Assembly (NCBI GenBank): GCA_026415975.1
Contig: JAOAFZ010000004.1
Coordinates: 55,757 to 119,756, forward strand
Direction: 5' to 3'
Length of the DNA stretch: 64,000 bases
From: Patescibacteria group bacterium
Lineage (GTDB): Bacteria > Patescibacteriota > Microgenomatia > UBA1406 > GWC2-37-13
In this document: piece after piece, positions 18,867 through 24,935 of the stretch
How positions within the stretch are numbered: the stretch's first letter is position 1
Layout: each line of letters begins with the position of its first letter
Notes under the pieces: generated by a model
The model's input: only the letters and a program-made list of their open reading frames with translations
What the model was told of the DNA's origin: nothing
The model's database searches: none
Made by a program: the position numbers and the translations under genes

Positions 18867-20033
18867 TTAACACCTATATGGAGCGGATGCCTTGCAACGG
18901 GGGCAGGATATAGTGCCATTTTTGATGATCGCCTTCACTTTTATGCGGTGACCTGCTTTCTTGGAACAGAACGGACAACACATTTCCTGACGGCGTTCAC
19001 GGGAGCTCCGATCTGAGAGAGCACGACCGACACTTGAAAACGGCCCAGCGTACCAGCCCGGTAACCCGAAACCACCTCCCAGATTCAGGGAATCATCTAG
19101 AACCAGTCCGTCAAGCTTTTGACGGGTGATCTCTGCACCACCGCAGGAACCAGCAAGAGAGAGCCTTTGCAAGCCATAGCGATCCATGTAGGTGCGCACA
19201 GCCCCCAAATATGCATCACGAATAATATTTTTGTTGATCCTGCCTTCGCGAATGGCACGACGGGTCGATTCATCGAGCTGATACTCGGGACTGCGCGCAC
19301 CGGCGAAGGTCGATTTCAGATCACGCATAACCTGTGCAAGTCGGTGCTCTGTACCGTCTTTGCCAATATATACTGTTTCGTTGCCGTAATCGCGGGAAAG
19401 GAAGTCATCAATCTGCAGTCCGGTGAGTATCGGGTGATTCAGGTATGTAGCGATCCGTTCTCGGATATCCGGAATGGCTTCCACCTGATCCACAAATTCG
19501 GGCGGAAAAAAGTGCCTGATCCCGTTTGCACCCATCACTTTCACAGCTACTGCGTGCGTTTGCGTCCCGTCAAAGTACATGACGTAGAGCTGACCGTCTT
19601 CGTACTGGATATCCCGAAACACATTGTCGGGATTATCATCGAGCGCAGCCGGACCGGGCGGGGAGTACAGAAGAACCACCGTTCCGGGGTTCTCGCGCGC
19701 TATCCTAAGGCTGGTTAGCGTGCTGTAACGCGGCAGGTCCCCCCGTTCGTGAGGGTGGAAGAACGATTCGGTATCGATATCGTACTGCGGTTTGCAGGAA
19801 GGGTGGGTATAGATACGGTTTTCGCAATACCAGTAGCCGTACCGGTTGGAGACTGGTTGATCGGCGACAACTTCTAAGGAGTAAGAGCCGACCTGTTGCT
19901 CCAGCTCGGCAATAGCTTCGTCGGGGCTTAGCGAGCGTAGGCGTTCGCTTTCTTGGATTGAGGATATGCCATAAGCACACAATTCCGCGGCGGTTGTGCG
20001 CGGCGGTGCCGTACACGTTTCGTACGATGCCAT
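18867..20033 (-). CDS. Uncharacterised zinc-ribbon protein controlled by a cobalamin riboswitch
   Basis: 388 residues; no family recognised. It lacks a signal peptide and membrane helices, so it is probably cytoplasmic. Visible parts are an N-terminal region with scattered cysteines, a central region containing LLYSPPGPAALDDNP and AVAVKVMGANGIRHFFPPEF, a Gly-rich LNLGGGFGLPGWYAG segment (~325), and a C-terminal zinc ribbon (CPFC near 353 and CPRC near 380). A canonical cobalamin riboswitch lies 28-200 nt upstream on the same strand with no gene between, so expression should fall when B12 is plentiful. Candidate roles are B12 salvage or handling, or a B12-sparing substitute; neither can be decided from sequence. 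The leader has AGGG 7 nt before the ATG, a possible weak ribosome binding site. Confidence 0.6.
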   Translation of the reverse strand: MASYETCTAPPRTTAAELCAYGISSIQESERLRSLSPDEAIAELEQQVGSYSLEVVADQPVSNRYGYWYCENRIYTHPSCKPQYDIDTESFFHPHERGDLPRYSTLTSLRIARENPGTVVLLYSPPGPAALDDNPDNVFRDIQYEDGQLYVMYFDGTQTHAVAVKVMGANGIRHFFPPEFVDQVEAIPDIRERIATYLNHPILTGLQIDDFLSRDYGNETVYIGKDGTEHRLAQVMRDLKSTFAGARSPEYQLDESTRRAIREGRINKNIIRDAYLGAVRTYMDRYGLQRLSLAGSCGGAEITRQKLDGLVLDDSLNLGGGFGLPGWYAGPFSSVGRALSDRSSRERRQEMCCPFCSKKAGHRIKVKAIIKNGTISCPRCKASAPYRC

Positions 20034-20060: not shown

Positions 20061-20232
20061 GGTTCGATTGGTATTCGGACTTCCAGCAATCGCCGGTTAC
20101 CGCTGCGGCACAGTCACGGAGTTTCACCGTGTTCCCGAAGTCGGCAGCACGCATAAACCTTGTGGTAAATCACACGAAAAAACGTCCTGCCGCGGTCTTC
20201 CCGCCTGAAAAGGCAGTGACCGGAATCGAACC
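20061..20232 (-). promoter_or_regulatory. Cobalamin (B12) riboswitch
   Basis: Read on the minus strand, the stretch has the conserved core in order: GGGAA, ACGGTGAAACTCCGT, GACTGTGCCGC, AGCGGTAACCGG and GGAAGTCCGAATACC (about 20070-20140 on the plus strand). The element is closed by a perfect 9-bp P1 helix (GGTTCGATT from 20224-20232 with AATCGAACC from 20061-20069). This is the adenosylcobalamin/cobalamin riboswitch fold. The platform is only ~27 nt with no T run, which suggests control of translation initiation of the gene starting at 20033. Confidence 0.92.
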
Positions 20233-20289: not shown

Positions 20290-20751
20290 TTAAAATCTTT
20301 TTATCTCCCAGACAATTCGGTCGTTGGGTTTTACGTACACCTCTTCCGGATTCCGGTCTGCGGGAGTGCCATTCACGGAAAACGACCAGTATTCGTTACG
20401 GGCAGGGTTTGCTGAGGTGCCATTTATCGAGTAAACATACATCCGGCCGGCCTCACCACTGGCTATGATGGTATGGGTGGCATCGAGAAGATCCAGCACA
20501 GAGCTTTGAGGCTGTAACTTCGCCTCTATGGTTGCAGGAGGGGTTCCGGGAATCAGGAGCGTTATCTGTGCGCTCCCGGCTTGTGCATGAGGAGACGGAG
20601 AAGCTGGCGGGTTTTCTGAACTGAAATTTTCGGCATAATACCATTTATTCAGGTAATAGAGTCCGATATTTCCAGCAACACTGATTATCAGCAAAATAAC
20701 CAGGAGTTCAATCCGATAGCGGGTTGGCTTGTCGAGGAGAGGTTTTTTCAT
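20290..20751 (-). CDS. Membrane-anchored DUF4430 (transcobalamin-like) protein
   Basis: 153 residues. An N-terminal membrane anchor (residues ~13-35) is followed by a Pro/Ser-rich linker (~42-58) and a DUF4430 domain (~60-153) with SVLDLLDA, a central YVYSINGT strand, NEYWSFSVNGTPA and the closing VKPNDRIVWEIK. The same domain forms the C-terminal half of animal transcobalamin/intrinsic factor and appears in bacterial surface proteins involved in cobamide capture (family knowledge). The location between a B12 riboswitch and a cobalamin adenosyltransferase strengthens a role in binding corrinoid outside the membrane. TATAAT ends 9 nt before the ATG. Confidence 0.8.
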   Translation of the reverse strand: MKKPLLDKPTRYRIELLVILLIISVAGNIGLYYLNKWYYAENFSSENPPASPSPHAQAGSAQITLLIPGTPPATIEAKLQPQSSVLDLLDATHTIIASGEAGRMYVYSINGTSANPARNEYWSFSVNGTPADRNPEEVYVKPNDRIVWEIKRF

Positions 20752-20829: not shown

Positions 20830-21363
20830 TCAGGTAACTGCCTCATTGCCGCCGCTGTGTTTGCGGGCCATCATAAAAAACAGATCAGAGAGCCGGTTCA
20901 GGTACTTCATCATAATCCGCTGTGAGTCGTCGTTTATTGTGTGTGGGATGTCGCTGGTAAAGAATGCAACTACTTCCCGTTCGGCGCGGCGGCAGGTGGC
21001 ACGGAGCACGTGAAACCAACCCGCCAGCACCGAGCCTCCGGGCAGGATGAAGCGGGTTAGTTTGGGAAGCGTGCGGTCTAGTGCGTCGATCCGGCGTTCA
21101 AACTCGTCGATTTGCCTATCTAACGCGGTTATCGGAGTGTTTGCGCCCGCCATAATGCCCATCATTTTGTATAGATCACCCTGCACAGTAGTCAGAAACT
21201 CACGCTCCTCCACTTCTTCCACCAGGGCAGCAACCAGTCCGATAAAGCTGGTGAGTTCGTCTATGGTGCCGTAGGAGTTTACTTGCGGATGCGCTTTGGA
21301 AACCCGCCCGCCGCCGAAAATTGCTGTAGTTCCTTTATCGCCGGTTTTAGTGTAAATTGGCAT
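20830..21363 (-). CDS. Cob(I)alamin adenosyltransferase, PduO type
   Basis: 177 residues. It matches the PduO/CobO2 (MMAB-like) trimeric adenosyltransferases that attach the adenosyl group of ATP to cob(I)alamin. It starts MPIYTKTGDKGTTAIFGG (ATP loop), and also has SYGTIDELTSFIG, FILPGGS and a late RATCRRAERE helix and YLNRLSDLFFMMAR, all family landmarks. Its product, adenosylcobalamin, is the cofactor of the class II ribonucleotide reductase encoded 1.1 kb away and the likely riboswitch ligand. Start: TATACT ends 7 nt before the ATG at 21363; the longer frame upstream is rejected. Confidence 0.95.
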   Translation of the reverse strand: MPIYTKTGDKGTTAIFGGGRVSKAHPQVNSYGTIDELTSFIGLVAALVEEVEEREFLTTVQGDLYKMMGIMAGANTPITALDRQIDEFERRIDALDRTLPKLTRFILPGGSVLAGWFHVLRATCRRAEREVVAFFTSDIPHTINDDSQRIMMKYLNRLSDLFFMMARKHSGGNEAVT

Positions 21364-21431
21364 AAGAGGGAGTATAGCAGACTGTTCATTAGGATACACT
21401 GTTTTCGATAAATCCGCCAAGAAAAATGTCC

Positions 21432-21447
21432 TATAATTTGATATAAT
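21432..21447 (+). promoter_or_regulatory. Tandem TATAAT -10 boxes in front of the large structured RNA
   Basis: Two perfect TATAAT hexamers lie at 21432-21437 and 21442-21447 on the plus strand. The second predicts a transcript start near 21454, just ahead of the first hairpin module. No consensus -35 is evident. The pduO promoter lies ~60 bp away on the other strand. Confidence 0.6.
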
Positions 21448-21819
21448 TGTCAATTAGATTCCGGTACTAAAATTATCGAAAGCGCACTTTGAGTGCGCAT
21501 GTTTCCCGCAGGTGCGGGAAAGTACCGGAAAAAAAATTAAAAATGCACTGCAGTTCCTTCCCAGGACATTCTGCAGTGCGGCTATCGACAGGGCGGGTAA
21601 CCGTAAAAGCTGTCGAGGGATACCATCGGATCCCGGAAGCCGATGGAGTGCAAATTCCGGTACGGTTGGGGAAAAAGCTTCCCCATACCAGTGCCCGTTG
21701 GAGGCGGGCTGGTACCGGAGCATTAGCCGCGAAGTGGATCCATCACGCCGGATGGAACCACTTTGGATGGGGTGGAACAAACCGCCCCCGGCGGGAAAGG
21801 CGCTCCGAAAGGAGGGGTT

Positions 21820-22278
21820 GTGACCCGGAGGATGGTCCCCCCCCTGCTGCTAGCCCTCGCAGGGCTAGTGGCGGTGGTGGTATCCCCACCTGCGTACGCG
21901 CAGGTGGGGATATATACCACCCGGATCGACCCGGGGGTAGTGTACATCATCGCGCGTGGACTGGACCACGCGCGGATAGAGTACCACCCCCCGGTCAGTC
22001 CGGACTGGGGCATCCATGTTGGGTCCGATCGGCCGGAGGTGCTTGTAAATTGCACCCACCGGCCGATTTGGATCCAATCGGGCCTATTCACCCGGGAAGT
22101 CCGGTTAAACATTGACGGTGGCCCGAGAGGGCCTACCGCATGGATAACCGGGCAGAAGCAGGGTGAGTTCAATCTCCACCTAATTGACTTTGGGGTCGGC
22201 CCAGCCGACCCAAGGCAATGGGTGGTGATTCACCCTGTGCCCGGGGCGACAGGCCCCCCCCAAACCTGCTTCCCATGA
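21820..22278 (+). CDS. Possible small secreted protein embedded in the structured RNA (uncertain)
   Basis: A GTG at 21820 preceded by AAGGAGG (4 nt between GGAGG and GTG) opens a 152-residue frame. The start VTRRMVPPLLLALAGLVAVV followed by SPPAYAQ looks like a signal peptide with a signal-peptidase site. The mature part (~125 residues) is Pro/Gly-rich with beta-like stretches and no recognised domain, and it ends at 22278 inside a hairpin. For: the ribosome binding site plus export signal. Against: nearly every base also lies in a perfect stem, long frames are open in other frames and on the other strand here, and the organism rarely uses such sites. It may be a structured mRNA, a dual-function RNA, or chance. 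Confidence 0.3.
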   Translation: MTRRMVPPLLLALAGLVAVVVSPPAYAQVGIYTTRIDPGVVYIIARGLDHARIEYHPPVSPDWGIHVGSDRPEVLVNCTHRPIWIQSGLFTREVRLNIDGGPRGPTAWITGQKQGEFNLHLIDFGVGPADPRQWVVIHPVPGATGPPQTCFP

Positions 22279-22296
22279 GGTAAGCAGGTAAGGGGT

Positions 22297-22364
22297 GCGG
22301 ACGGAACCTGCAAAACGGTCATGGTTGGCGACCATGGCGCGTTGCGGGTTCCGTCCGCTTTTTT
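22297..22364 (+). terminator. Intrinsic terminator of the large structured RNA
   Basis: A 12-bp stem (GCGGACGGAACC at 22297-22308 with GGTTCCGTCCGC at 22347-22358) carries an inner hairpin (CATGGT/ACCATG) and is followed directly by six T. It ends the plus-strand transcript. Confidence 0.85.
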
Positions 22365-22392
22365 CCTAACTACTCGTGCTGTATACGACAAA

Positions 22393-22431
22393 GCCCCCCG
22401 TAACTACTCTTTGCGGAGTCGATCAGGGGGC
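22393..22431 (-). terminator. Possible terminator downstream of nrdJ
   Basis: On the minus strand GCCCCC and GGGGGC pair around a ~26-nt loop, followed by only three T. It is weak as a rho-independent terminator but correctly placed 60 bp after the nrdJ stop. Confidence 0.4.
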
Positions 22432-22490
22432 CCTGCCGATTGGCATTCCTCACTTATAACAAGTAAGGATCGTTATTGGTTTGTGTACGG

Positions 22491-24935
22491 TCAGCAGGCT
22501 GAATAGCCGCACCCGTAGCATTTCTTACACCCTTCCTCGTGTGCTAGAAGGGCCTGTCCGCAGTCCGGACAGATGTCGAACACTGCTTTACTGGTAACTT
22601 CTTTTTTTGCTACCACTTCCTGCATCAGCACGGGCTGTACCGTCTCTGAGGTGAGCACAGGTTGACCTGCCGAAGCAAGTGCCGCTGCCGGAGTATCGTC
22701 GGTCAGTGCCGCACCGTTGGCCGGTGTCGCTGTGGCTTCGGCTGCGTGCAGCTTCTTCTCCTCTTCCTGCTTCTTGAAGTGCATCGAAAGCACCTTCGCG
22801 ATCGCATCTGGGAGGCTCTTGACGCGATCCTTGCCGAACCCGAGCGCGTTGCCGCCTCCAATTCCCTGGAGGTCGTCGATGATCTTCTTGACACGCTCTG
22901 TGGGCGGGAGTGATGAATTTACCCGCAGGAACAGCGAGATCACGCGGCCTAGCCCTTCGGCCATGGCGTAAACGTCGGTCCCGGCTTTGCCGAGGTTGAT
23001 GAAGACCTCGATTGGCTCACCTTCCTCGTTCGAGTTAATTGTGATGTACGCGGTGCCGACCGGCGTGTGCATACGGTAGGTAGCACCATGCACCACCATC
23101 GGTCGAGGCACGACCACCGGTTGCGGTTTGGCCTCAACAGGCTTCTCCTCTTTTTTCGGCTCTTCCTTGCGGGAAAGTACTCCCATACGGGAGCCGTCAC
23201 GCATATAGGCAATACCTTTAAGGCCGTTGTCGTACGCCAGCGTGTACAGGCGTTTTACATCTTCCACGGTATGGGTACTCGGAGCGTTTACGGTCTTGGA
23301 GATCGAGGCGTCGACATATTTCTGGATGGTCGCCTGGATCATGACGTGATCCTCCGGTGACAGGTCGTTTGCCGAGCAGAAGAATTCCGGGCGCTTGATC
23401 CTGCCGGCATCGTAGGCCTCTTTGTTGGCCTGGTACCATTCTTCCCAGAGATGGTGACGGATTACATGCTCGCCCAGGCGGTCTCTTCGGATGAACTCGA
23501 ACTCATATACCGGCTCGATGCCTGAGGTGGTGTTGGCCATGAGCGAGGTTGATCCGGTTGGTGCCTGCATCAGGATTACCGAGTTGCGGATACCGTTCTT
23601 CTTAATCTGCTCGCGGATCTCCTTAGGGAAGGTCTTCATGAATCCCGACTTGGTGAATTTGTCGCCGTCGAACATGCCGAAGGAGCCTTTTTCCATGGCA
23701 ATTTTCATGGAGGCGAGGTACGCTTCGTGAGCGATCGTCTTGTAGACTTTTTCCACGAACTCCATCGCTTCCGGCGAACCATAGCGTAGGTGAAGCTTGA
23801 TGAGCGTGTCGCCGAGACCCATGGTGCCGAGACCGATGCGGCGCTCGCCCTCAAGCTGCGTCTTGCGGATGCCCGGGAAGATGTACGGATCCATGTCGAT
23901 AACATTATCCTGGAACCGGACCGCTATCGGCACGAGCTTCCGGAGGGCCTCGAAATCGAACTCGGCGGGTTTGGTGATGTCGTTGCCCTTGACCAGCGCG
24001 CTCAGGTTGATCGAGCCCAGGTTGCAGACGCCCCAGGGCGGCAGGCCTTCCTCGCCGCACGGATTGACGCAGTTGATACGGTTCCAGTAGTAGTTATTGT
24101 GCATCTTGTTGTAGCGCTCCATGAAGACAAGTCCCGGTTCGGCTGAGCGCCAGGCTGCTTTGGCAATAAGATCCCAGATCTCGGCTGCCTTCACGACCTT
24201 GTGAACAATGACTTTCTTACCTTTCTGCTTCCAGACATCAATATCACCGTCCCAGAATTCGTCATAGTCTGGATCTTCGATGTCGGGAAAGACCAGGGGC
24301 CAGTCTGCGTTTGCCTTGACTGCCTCCATGAACTTATCTGAGACGCACACGGAGAGATTGGCACCGTTAATGCGAGAAAGATCCTCTTTTACGGTAATAA
24401 ATTCCTCAACGTCCGGATGCCAGTCCCAGAGCATGAGCATGAGAGCGCCGCGGCGGGTTCCCCCCTGCTGGATAATATCTTTCGTTGCCAGCGAGAACAT
24501 CTCGGCCCAGTTACACGGACCCGACGAGAAGCCGTTTACTTTGCGGACTCGGGCACCGCGCGGCCGCAACGAGGATAGGTTGATTCCTACTCCGCCGCCG
24601 CGCGCCATAATCTCGATCATGTTGCGCAGGGAATCCAGGATGCCGCCGCGCGAATCCTTGGGCGAAGGGATGACGAAACAGTTGTAGTACGTGACATTGA
24701 ACCCCGTCCCGGCTCCGGCGAGGATACGGCCCCCCGGAATATACTTGAAGTCTTCCATTATCTCATAGAAGGCGCGCTCCCATTTTTTGCGGGAGGTCTT
24801 TTTTTCCTGTCCAGCAACTGCTTTTGCAACACGGGCCCACATTTCCTCGGGGCTCTTTTCGATAGCTTTGCCTTCTTTGTTCTTTAATGCGTACCGATCC
24901 AGGAAGACCTTCTGGGAGACGCCAGAGAGTTTCAT
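22491..24935 (-). CDS. nrdJ: Vitamin B12-dependent (class II) ribonucleotide reductase
   Basis: 814 residues. It reduces ribonucleotides to deoxyribonucleotides using a thiyl radical made from adenosylcobalamin. Landmarks: the substrate/Cys region YYNCFVIPSP, GGGVGINLSSLR, GGTRRGALM, the catalytic loop NPCGEEGLPPWGVCNLGSIN (radical Cys and partners), QAPTGSTSLMANTTSGIEP, a C-terminal TSCPD domain (~640-730) and a zinc/redox tail with CPDC, CKKC and the final GCGYSAC. The tail cysteines shuttle electrons from thioredoxin. No class I or III enzyme is seen here. It lies in the B12 region with pduO and is followed upstream by nrdR on the same strand; its ~255-nt leader is structured. Confidence 0.95.
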   Translation of the reverse strand: MKLSGVSQKVFLDRYALKNKEGKAIEKSPEEMWARVAKAVAGQEKKTSRKKWERAFYEIMEDFKYIPGGRILAGAGTGFNVTYYNCFVIPSPKDSRGGILDSLRNMIEIMARGGGVGINLSSLRPRGARVRKVNGFSSGPCNWAEMFSLATKDIIQQGGTRRGALMLMLWDWHPDVEEFITVKEDLSRINGANLSVCVSDKFMEAVKANADWPLVFPDIEDPDYDEFWDGDIDVWKQKGKKVIVHKVVKAAEIWDLIAKAAWRSAEPGLVFMERYNKMHNNYYWNRINCVNPCGEEGLPPWGVCNLGSINLSALVKGNDITKPAEFDFEALRKLVPIAVRFQDNVIDMDPYIFPGIRKTQLEGERRIGLGTMGLGDTLIKLHLRYGSPEAMEFVEKVYKTIAHEAYLASMKIAMEKGSFGMFDGDKFTKSGFMKTFPKEIREQIKKNGIRNSVILMQAPTGSTSLMANTTSGIEPVYEFEFIRRDRLGEHVIRHHLWEEWYQANKEAYDAGRIKRPEFFCSANDLSPEDHVMIQATIQKYVDASISKTVNAPSTHTVEDVKRLYTLAYDNGLKGIAYMRDGSRMGVLSRKEEPKKEEKPVEAKPQPVVVPRPMVVHGATYRMHTPVGTAYITINSNEEGEPIEVFINLGKAGTDVYAMAEGLGRVISLFLRVNSSLPPTERVKKIIDDLQGIGGGNALGFGKDRVKSLPDAIAKVLSMHFKKQEEEKKLHAAEATATPANGAALTDDTPAAALASAGQPVLTSETVQPVLMQEVVAKKEVTSKAVFDICPDCGQALLAHEEGCKKCYGCGYSAC

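Follow-up and report, generated by a model that had tools for sequence, protein, structure and literature searches.

The window analysed here is a 64-kb stretch of DNA from a genome of 1.31 Mb (10 contigs, 96.6 % complete). Near its first third the genes for a B12-dependent ribonucleotide reductase (nrdJ) and a pduO-type cobalamin adenosyltransferase lie on the same strand, and the gap between them holds a unit packed with hairpins and oriented against both. The unit consists of a structured leader, an ORF with a predicted signal peptide and an intrinsic terminator, the coordinates of which are given in Table 1. The start of pduO was set at the ATG at 21363 because the alignments of its relatives begin there.

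Table 1. Features of the nrdJ-pduO region, in coordinates of the 64-kb window
Feature	Position	Strand	Description
pduO-type cobalamin adenosyltransferase	20830-21363	-	Divergent neighbour; Pfam PF01923, E 3.4e-50
Two TATAAT hexamers	21432-21437, 21442-21447	+	Putative -10 elements, by eye; upstream of the unit, divergent from pduO
Hairpin-packed unit	21454-22364	+	In the 1127-nt gap between nrdJ and pduO
Structured leader	21454-21819	+	366 nt; from folding; non-coding by the codon-phase test
Leader domain A	21459-21530	+	Stem TTCCGGTACT/AGTACCGGAA around two hairpins; closing-stem sequence recurs in domain B
Leader multi-branched domain	21580-21728	+	Closed by GGCTA/TAGCC; GTAA tetraloop; contains domain B
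Leader domain B	21656-21719	+	Stem TCCGGTAC/GTACCGGA around two hairpins
GAAA-capped Shine-Dalgarno hairpin	21798-21819	+	Loop and 3' arm hold AAAGGAGG (21808-21815); start codon adjoins
ORF, predicted secreted protein precursor	21820-22278 (with stop)	+	152 codons (21820-22275), GTG start, TGA stop
Predicted signal peptide	21820-21900	+	VTRRMVPPLLLALAGLVAVVVSPPAYA; by eye; cleavage before Q, QVG follows
Longest uninterrupted stem in the ORF	21874-21920	+	Unbroken run of 14 Watson-Crick pairs, 21 pairs in total, loop TACG
Stop-codon hairpin	22264-22289	+	ACCTGCTTCCC-ATGA-GGTAAGCAGGT; TGA of the ORF in the apical loop
Intrinsic terminator	22297-22364	+	Interrupted 28-pair hairpin in the minimum free energy structure, then T6
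nrdJ, B12-dependent ribonucleotide reductase	22491-24935	-	Convergent neighbour; Pfam PF02867, PF00317, PF12637

A pduO gene was found in 68 of the 72 genomes of the family, the host's own included, and the DNA flanking it was examined at 67 loci of relatives; fragmentary second matches in two genomes were set aside, as was a genome in which a fragment of 63 residues was the only match. Both nrdJ and pduO were found, on the same strand, at 65 of these loci (64 genomes), the other two being cut by contig ends. The gap between the two genes measures -25 to 171 nt at 55 of the 65 loci and 450-1584 nt at 10, and seven of the ten long gaps contain a gene on the opposite strand (loci L079, L082, L088, L090, L091, L093 and L105). 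These seven genes resemble the unit in their slot, in their orientation and, as judged by eye, in an N-terminal hydrophobic segment that would act as a secretion signal or anchor; they differ from it in encoding 326-390 aa with a Cys-rich domain and a Thr/Pro-rich stalk (also by eye), in the ordinary folding energies of their gaps and in having no sequence similarity to the unit's gap. The slot thus repeatedly houses genes whose products are predicted to be exported, in keeping with a coding reading of the unit. The unit itself was not observed at any of the relatives' loci examined and therefore seems to have been acquired locally rather than to be a conserved companion of nrdJ. We note that at one further locus (L102, genome G003) the slot seems, by eye, to contain a pair of helix-turn-helix and PIN-like type, perhaps a toxin-antitoxin system.

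The only Rfam match above its gathering score in the window is a cobalamin riboswitch outside the unit (20070-20136, - strand, 39 bits), located directly upstream of a gene for a 388-aa protein (18867-20033, - strand). This protein has weak zinc-ribbon matches at its C-terminus only, and relatives of it are found near pduO at loci L027, L029 and L039; it is likely to be the product of a B12-controlled gene of unknown function. Adjoining pduO is a gene for a DUF4430 protein (20290-20751, - strand), which is also seen near pduO at 8 of 29 relatives' loci examined. DUF4430 is linked to transcobalamin-like proteins, and this one is perhaps part of B12 uptake. An AdoCbl-II riboswitch on L041 (17138-17208) gives this 1.3-Mb genome two classes of B12 riboswitch. 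Just after nrdJ, on the - strand, a hairpin with arms formed by a G-run and a C-run can be discerned by eye at about 22394-22431, followed by TTTG; it is perhaps nrdJ's own terminator.

The predicted fold of the unit is extreme. The minimum free energy (MFE) of 21454-22364 on the + strand is -534.2 kcal/mol, compared with -372 +/- 8 kcal/mol in 20 dinucleotide shuffles (z -19), and 100 further shuffles gave -371 +/- 9 kcal/mol. In energy density the unit reaches -0.586 kcal/nt, against -0.396 kcal/nt in the lowest of 104 non-overlapping 911-nt control windows from the same genome. The fold is also predicted to be far tighter than that of the 16S rRNA of the same cell, a 16S segment of equal length having a z of -5.8 and the two 911-nt ends of the molecule -0.384 and -0.355 kcal/nt. 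When 200-nt sliding windows are taken over the 64-kb window the unit is the strongest outlier, and the seven most extreme such windows in about 304 kb of the genome (the 64-kb window plus 13 sampled stretches) all lie inside it.

The original prediction had described this stretch as G/C-rich, with many hairpins on long perfect stems, GNRA loops, G-U pairs, three-way junctions and an intrinsic terminator behind, and all of these are recovered: the MFE structure shows 18 hairpin loops, of which 10 cap an uninterrupted stem of at least 7 bp (G-U allowed), together with GTAA, GAAA and GAGA tetraloops, three-way junctions, 26 G-U pairs among 340 and the terminator listed in Table 1, and the GC content is 0.59 against a control-window mean of 0.49. 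In the control windows the mean is 17.3 for hairpin loops and 1.7 for uninterrupted stems of this length, the latter count never exceeding 9. The number of hairpins in the unit is therefore ordinary for this host; it is the length of their stems that is exceptional. The control window with nine long stems (L043 6001) sits on an ordinary-looking ORF of 272 aa. The same prediction had placed tandem TATAAT boxes in front of the unit, and here the outcome is divided, since the two hexamers are plain to the eye but a promoter consensus scan found one site against a shuffle mean of 0.8, no excess over chance.

Both strands of the unit fold strongly (-534 and -497 kcal/mol). The + fold contains 26 G-U pairs and the - fold 9, a lean that is also seen in the 911-nt ends of the host 16S rRNA (39 vs 18 and 41 vs 22) and is lacking in the host tmRNA (9 vs 11), which is encoded elsewhere in the genome (L042 2406-2804). 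A G-U difference as large as that of the unit was reached in 8 of 100 shuffles and its energy difference in 2 of 100. The asymmetry thus modestly favours, and does not prove, an RNA read from the + strand. On both strands G-U pairs are fewer than in the shuffles (26 vs 36 and 9 vs 30).

The leader and the ORF were compared by a codon-phase GC test against structure-preserving permutations, in which base pairs are exchanged only with other base pairs and unpaired letters only with other unpaired letters, such that the exact secondary structure is kept; the best of three frames is taken in the data and in the null alike. No bias is evident in the leader, its value being reached in 8127 of 10,000 permutations, and these 366 nt behave as a non-coding structured RNA. 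Its domains A and B are closed by the same ATTCCGGTAC/GTACCGGA stem, with two hairpins in each, and are likely to represent an internal duplication. A search pattern, CCGGTACN{30,60}GTACCGG, was found in 5 of the 72 family genomes, the host's own included; it was discarded as a recurrent motif, a third copy in the host genome having, by eye, no hairpins between the arms. At the 3' end of the leader the pairing probability is 0.7-1.0 over the GGAG (21811-21814) of the Shine-Dalgarno hairpin, 0-0.2 over its GAAA loop (21807-21810) and 0.1-0.2 over the GTG start codon of the ORF.

This GTG follows four bases after an AAGGAGG Shine-Dalgarno sequence, and the ORF that it opens, with its coding signals, went unnoticed in the original prediction. 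The predicted signal peptide has a segment with a mean Kyte-Doolittle hydrophobicity of 3.08 over 12 residues. The combination of Shine-Dalgarno sequence and signal-peptide pattern arose in 5 of 20,000 structure-preserving permutations, and a Shine-Dalgarno-preceded start of equal Kyte-Doolittle hydrophobicity in 1 of 20,000, both criteria having been fixed only once the ORF had been seen. The codon-phase test is independent of the signal peptide. GC at codon positions one, two and three of the ORF is.684,.493 and.717, respectively; the dip at position two was reached in none of 10,000 permutations, and for residues 29-152 alone, behind the signal peptide, in 14 of 10,000. Codon-phase bias thus marks the ORF and is missing from the leader.

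Other measures of coding capacity are less telling. ORFs of at least 150 codons arise in 5 % of the structure-preserving permutations, so the length of this one is by itself uninformative. When scored by host codon usage the frame of the ORF is the best of six, yet it reaches -0.10 bits per codon, and all 25 host-gene slices shown, which belonged to the training set, score above it (0.01 to 0.37 bits per codon). Its amino-acid composition (-0.053) barely exceeds the 95th percentile of chance ORFs (-0.062). A single-sequence AF2 model, of low confidence (pLDDT 38.7), shows a helix at 8-20 followed by eight strands, and that of an overlapping control frame four three-residue strands and no helix (pLDDT 36.9). 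From its Shine-Dalgarno sequence, predicted signal peptide and codon-phase GC bias, the segment 21820-22275 is likely to be protein-coding and its product to be secreted.

The hairpins continue through this segment. In 300 synonymous-codon shuffles, which retain the amino acids and the codon set, the mean folding energy is -202.5 kcal/mol, compared with -282.8 kcal/mol for the ORF itself (a mean loss of 80 kcal/mol; z -10.8), and none is as low. The same test on five slices of host genes gave z values of +0.8 to -3.5, two of the slices also beating their own shuffles (z -2.3 and -3.5). The hairpins of the ORF are thus unexplained by GC content and protein sequence, and they exceed what the protein requires. 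Of the 171 pairs in the ORF, 94 share one pairing register (one-sided p 0.02, uncorrected for the three registers); this bias was dropped as too weak.

No relatives of the unit were recovered. A search of 21454-22364 against Rfam 15 (4227 families), which presumably includes models of OLE, ROOL and GOLLD, gave no match at the gathering cut-off; relaxing the limit to E 10 gives thirteen matches, each falling far short of its gathering score and at the level of chance, with none of those three families among them. One of the candidates, mir-1010 (E 0.007, 25.5 bits against a 70-bit cut-off), falls on the terminator hairpin and was likewise put down to chance. No Rfam family of self-splicing introns, RNase P or ribozymes matches the unit, nor does any tmRNA or tRNA model (ARAGORN, Rfam), and ARAGORN finds no tRNA in the window.

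At the nucleotide level, BLASTN against 57 genomes including the host's own returned the unit alone, two minor matches being its own inverted repeats. Among 372 genomes of the class and 379 of the phylum (own genome included, two candidates per genome scored), five and seven others, respectively, gave chance-like matches of 20-30 nt (E 1.6e-4 to 0.0096), of which seven of twelve fall within query positions 68-111, around an A-rich linker. BLASTN gave no match in plasmids or phages. A covariance model of the multi-branched domain (R1, 21580-21728), which as a single-sequence model is insensitive and was run with stricter filters above 40 genomes, found only itself in the 72 genomes of the family and the 372 of the class. 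The 57 relatives' and 72 family genomes searched yielded no second genome from this genus. There is no second copy of the unit in its own genome, and for that reason we dropped the idea of an accumulation of repeated palindromes. A match of 12 identical nt to one relative's spacer (L015; score 24, against a null with mean 18.8 and maximum 26 in 200) was considered insignificant because 29 spacers had been inspected.

Searches with the protein were similar in outcome. By tblastn the ORF matches one of the 72 family genomes, which is its own; no match was confirmed in viral and genome contigs, none was found in phages and only four, at E 2-5, in plasmids, and DNA seeds taken from other frames gave no confirmed match in the viral or genome contigs. 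Among 172 word-sharing candidates in a protein database none reached E <= 10, although this database did not return the product of the ORF either, such that the genome's proteins are absent from it or the ORF was not called. The ORF has no match in Pfam, PHROGs, NCBIfam or the PDB.

The codon-phase signal and the extreme fold coincide on the same 456 nt. An extreme fold with a likely coding second half suggests an mRNA that is likely to be folded in the manner of a structural RNA, and we think it probable, if well short of certain, that 21454-22364 is one compact gene, a hairpin-packed mRNA with a structured leader that encodes a secreted precursor of 152 residues. In such a gene transcription would begin a short way past the TATAAT boxes and proceed away from pduO, and the leader would fold into two junction domains on their common stem. 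Since the Shine-Dalgarno sequence sits in the predicted GAAA-capped hairpin, ribosome entry would be gated by the folding of the leader. It counts against the gene reading that strong structure around a start normally reduces translation, according to the available part of a study of E. coli mRNA structure (PMC4619774). The hairpins of the ORF may shield the message from ribonucleases and could slow elongation during export of the signal peptide, and transcription would end at the terminator. The RNA may have a role beyond that of a message. It is a tentative extension, and one we hold with considerable doubt, that leader, coding region and tail have together been shaped into one ornate RNA with a function of its own, the secreted protein being written in the same letters.

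The original prediction regarded the whole unit as a non-coding RNA of no recognised class. That no known class fits is borne out by the Rfam results, and the non-coding assignment is in part borne out for the leader but is unsupported, in silico, for 21820-22275, the half of the unit in which Shine-Dalgarno sequence, predicted signal peptide and codon-phase GC are found. It also proposed looking for homologues in related genomes, and BLASTN, the covariance model and tblastn disclosed none. If the unit were nevertheless a new class of large ornate non-coding RNA, and the ORF a chance open frame in GC-rich sequence, the strength of the fold over its entire length, leader and 3' hairpins included, would be accounted for, as would the GNRA loops, the duplicated junction domain, the poor host codon score and the failure to find a protein relative in the collections searched. 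A bias present in the ORF and lacking in the leader (0 against 8127 of 10,000 permutations) is difficult to reconcile with such a class, as are the Shine-Dalgarno sequence and signal peptide with which the ORF begins; and large RNA classes are usually recognised through conservation, of which the searches for homologues revealed no trace. We regard this explanation as unlikely.

The 1127-nt spacer, long against the -25 to 171 nt at most relatives' loci, could also denote a mobile or foreign insert between nrdJ and pduO, the hairpins of which act as DNA or are relics of an RNA or single-stranded replicon. The raised GC content, the strong folding of both strands and the paucity of G-U pairs on each are consistent with this. 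Comparison of its edges (21364-21470 vs 22330-22493), however, disclosed neither a direct repeat of at least 6 nt nor an inverted repeat exceeding 6 nt, and the lack of a second copy in the genome, of a phage or plasmid DNA match, of a confirmed match in viral contigs (with only the four plasmid tblastn matches at E 2-5), of a Pfam or PHROGs family for the ORF and of a ribozyme family all weigh against an insert, as does the lean of the G-U pairs towards a + strand RNA; we consider it improbable. Least credible, and very improbable in our estimation, is a long riboswitch-like or attenuator leader before an ordinary gene whose hairpins are a by-product of high GC, for although the Shine-Dalgarno sequence does lie within a predicted hairpin and B12 genes and a cobalamin riboswitch are nearby, the leader matches no Rfam aptamer family, cobalamin included, and the synonymous shuffles show the folding of the ORF to go far beyond its composition. 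Should the reading as a compact, hairpin-packed protein-coding gene be confirmed, it would offer a compact and testable case of selection for RNA structure within bacterial coding sequence, and would caution against taking very strong folding alone as a sign that a sequence is non-coding.

Bacterial RNAs that are both coding and regulatory are exemplified by RNAIII and SgrS, and the unit is like these in combining many hairpins and an ORF in one structured RNA; it is unlike them in that its ORF is much longer (152 codons), is itself heavily structured and has a predicted secreted product. Single-stranded RNA viruses have RNAs with ordered structure on the scale of the genome, and they share with the unit long stems that run through a coding region beyond the needs of the protein, although the unit is a single chromosomal gene of 0.9 kb. 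In the accessible portions of the literature on structured RNAs of CPR/Patescibacteria, highly structured mRNAs and dual-function RNAs of secreted proteins we found nothing alike. As far as the available text of a recent account goes, OLE is 577 nt long and GOLLD often more than 800 nt, the latter being often near tRNA islands in phages (PMC12286853). The unit resembles OLE, ROOL and GOLLD, as there described, in size class and dense helices, and departs from them in that half of it appears, in silico, to be coding and that no conserved family was found; from GOLLD it differs further in the absence of tRNAs from its window. Obelisks, in the available part of their description, are circular rod-like RNAs that encode Oblin-1 (PMC13096302). 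Like the unit, they are very stable RNAs of about 1 kb with a reading frame; the unit, in contrast, is chromosomal, possesses a terminator of its own and has a predicted secreted product, and in place of the rod reported for Obelisks its linear MFE structure strings together hairpins and multi-branched domains.
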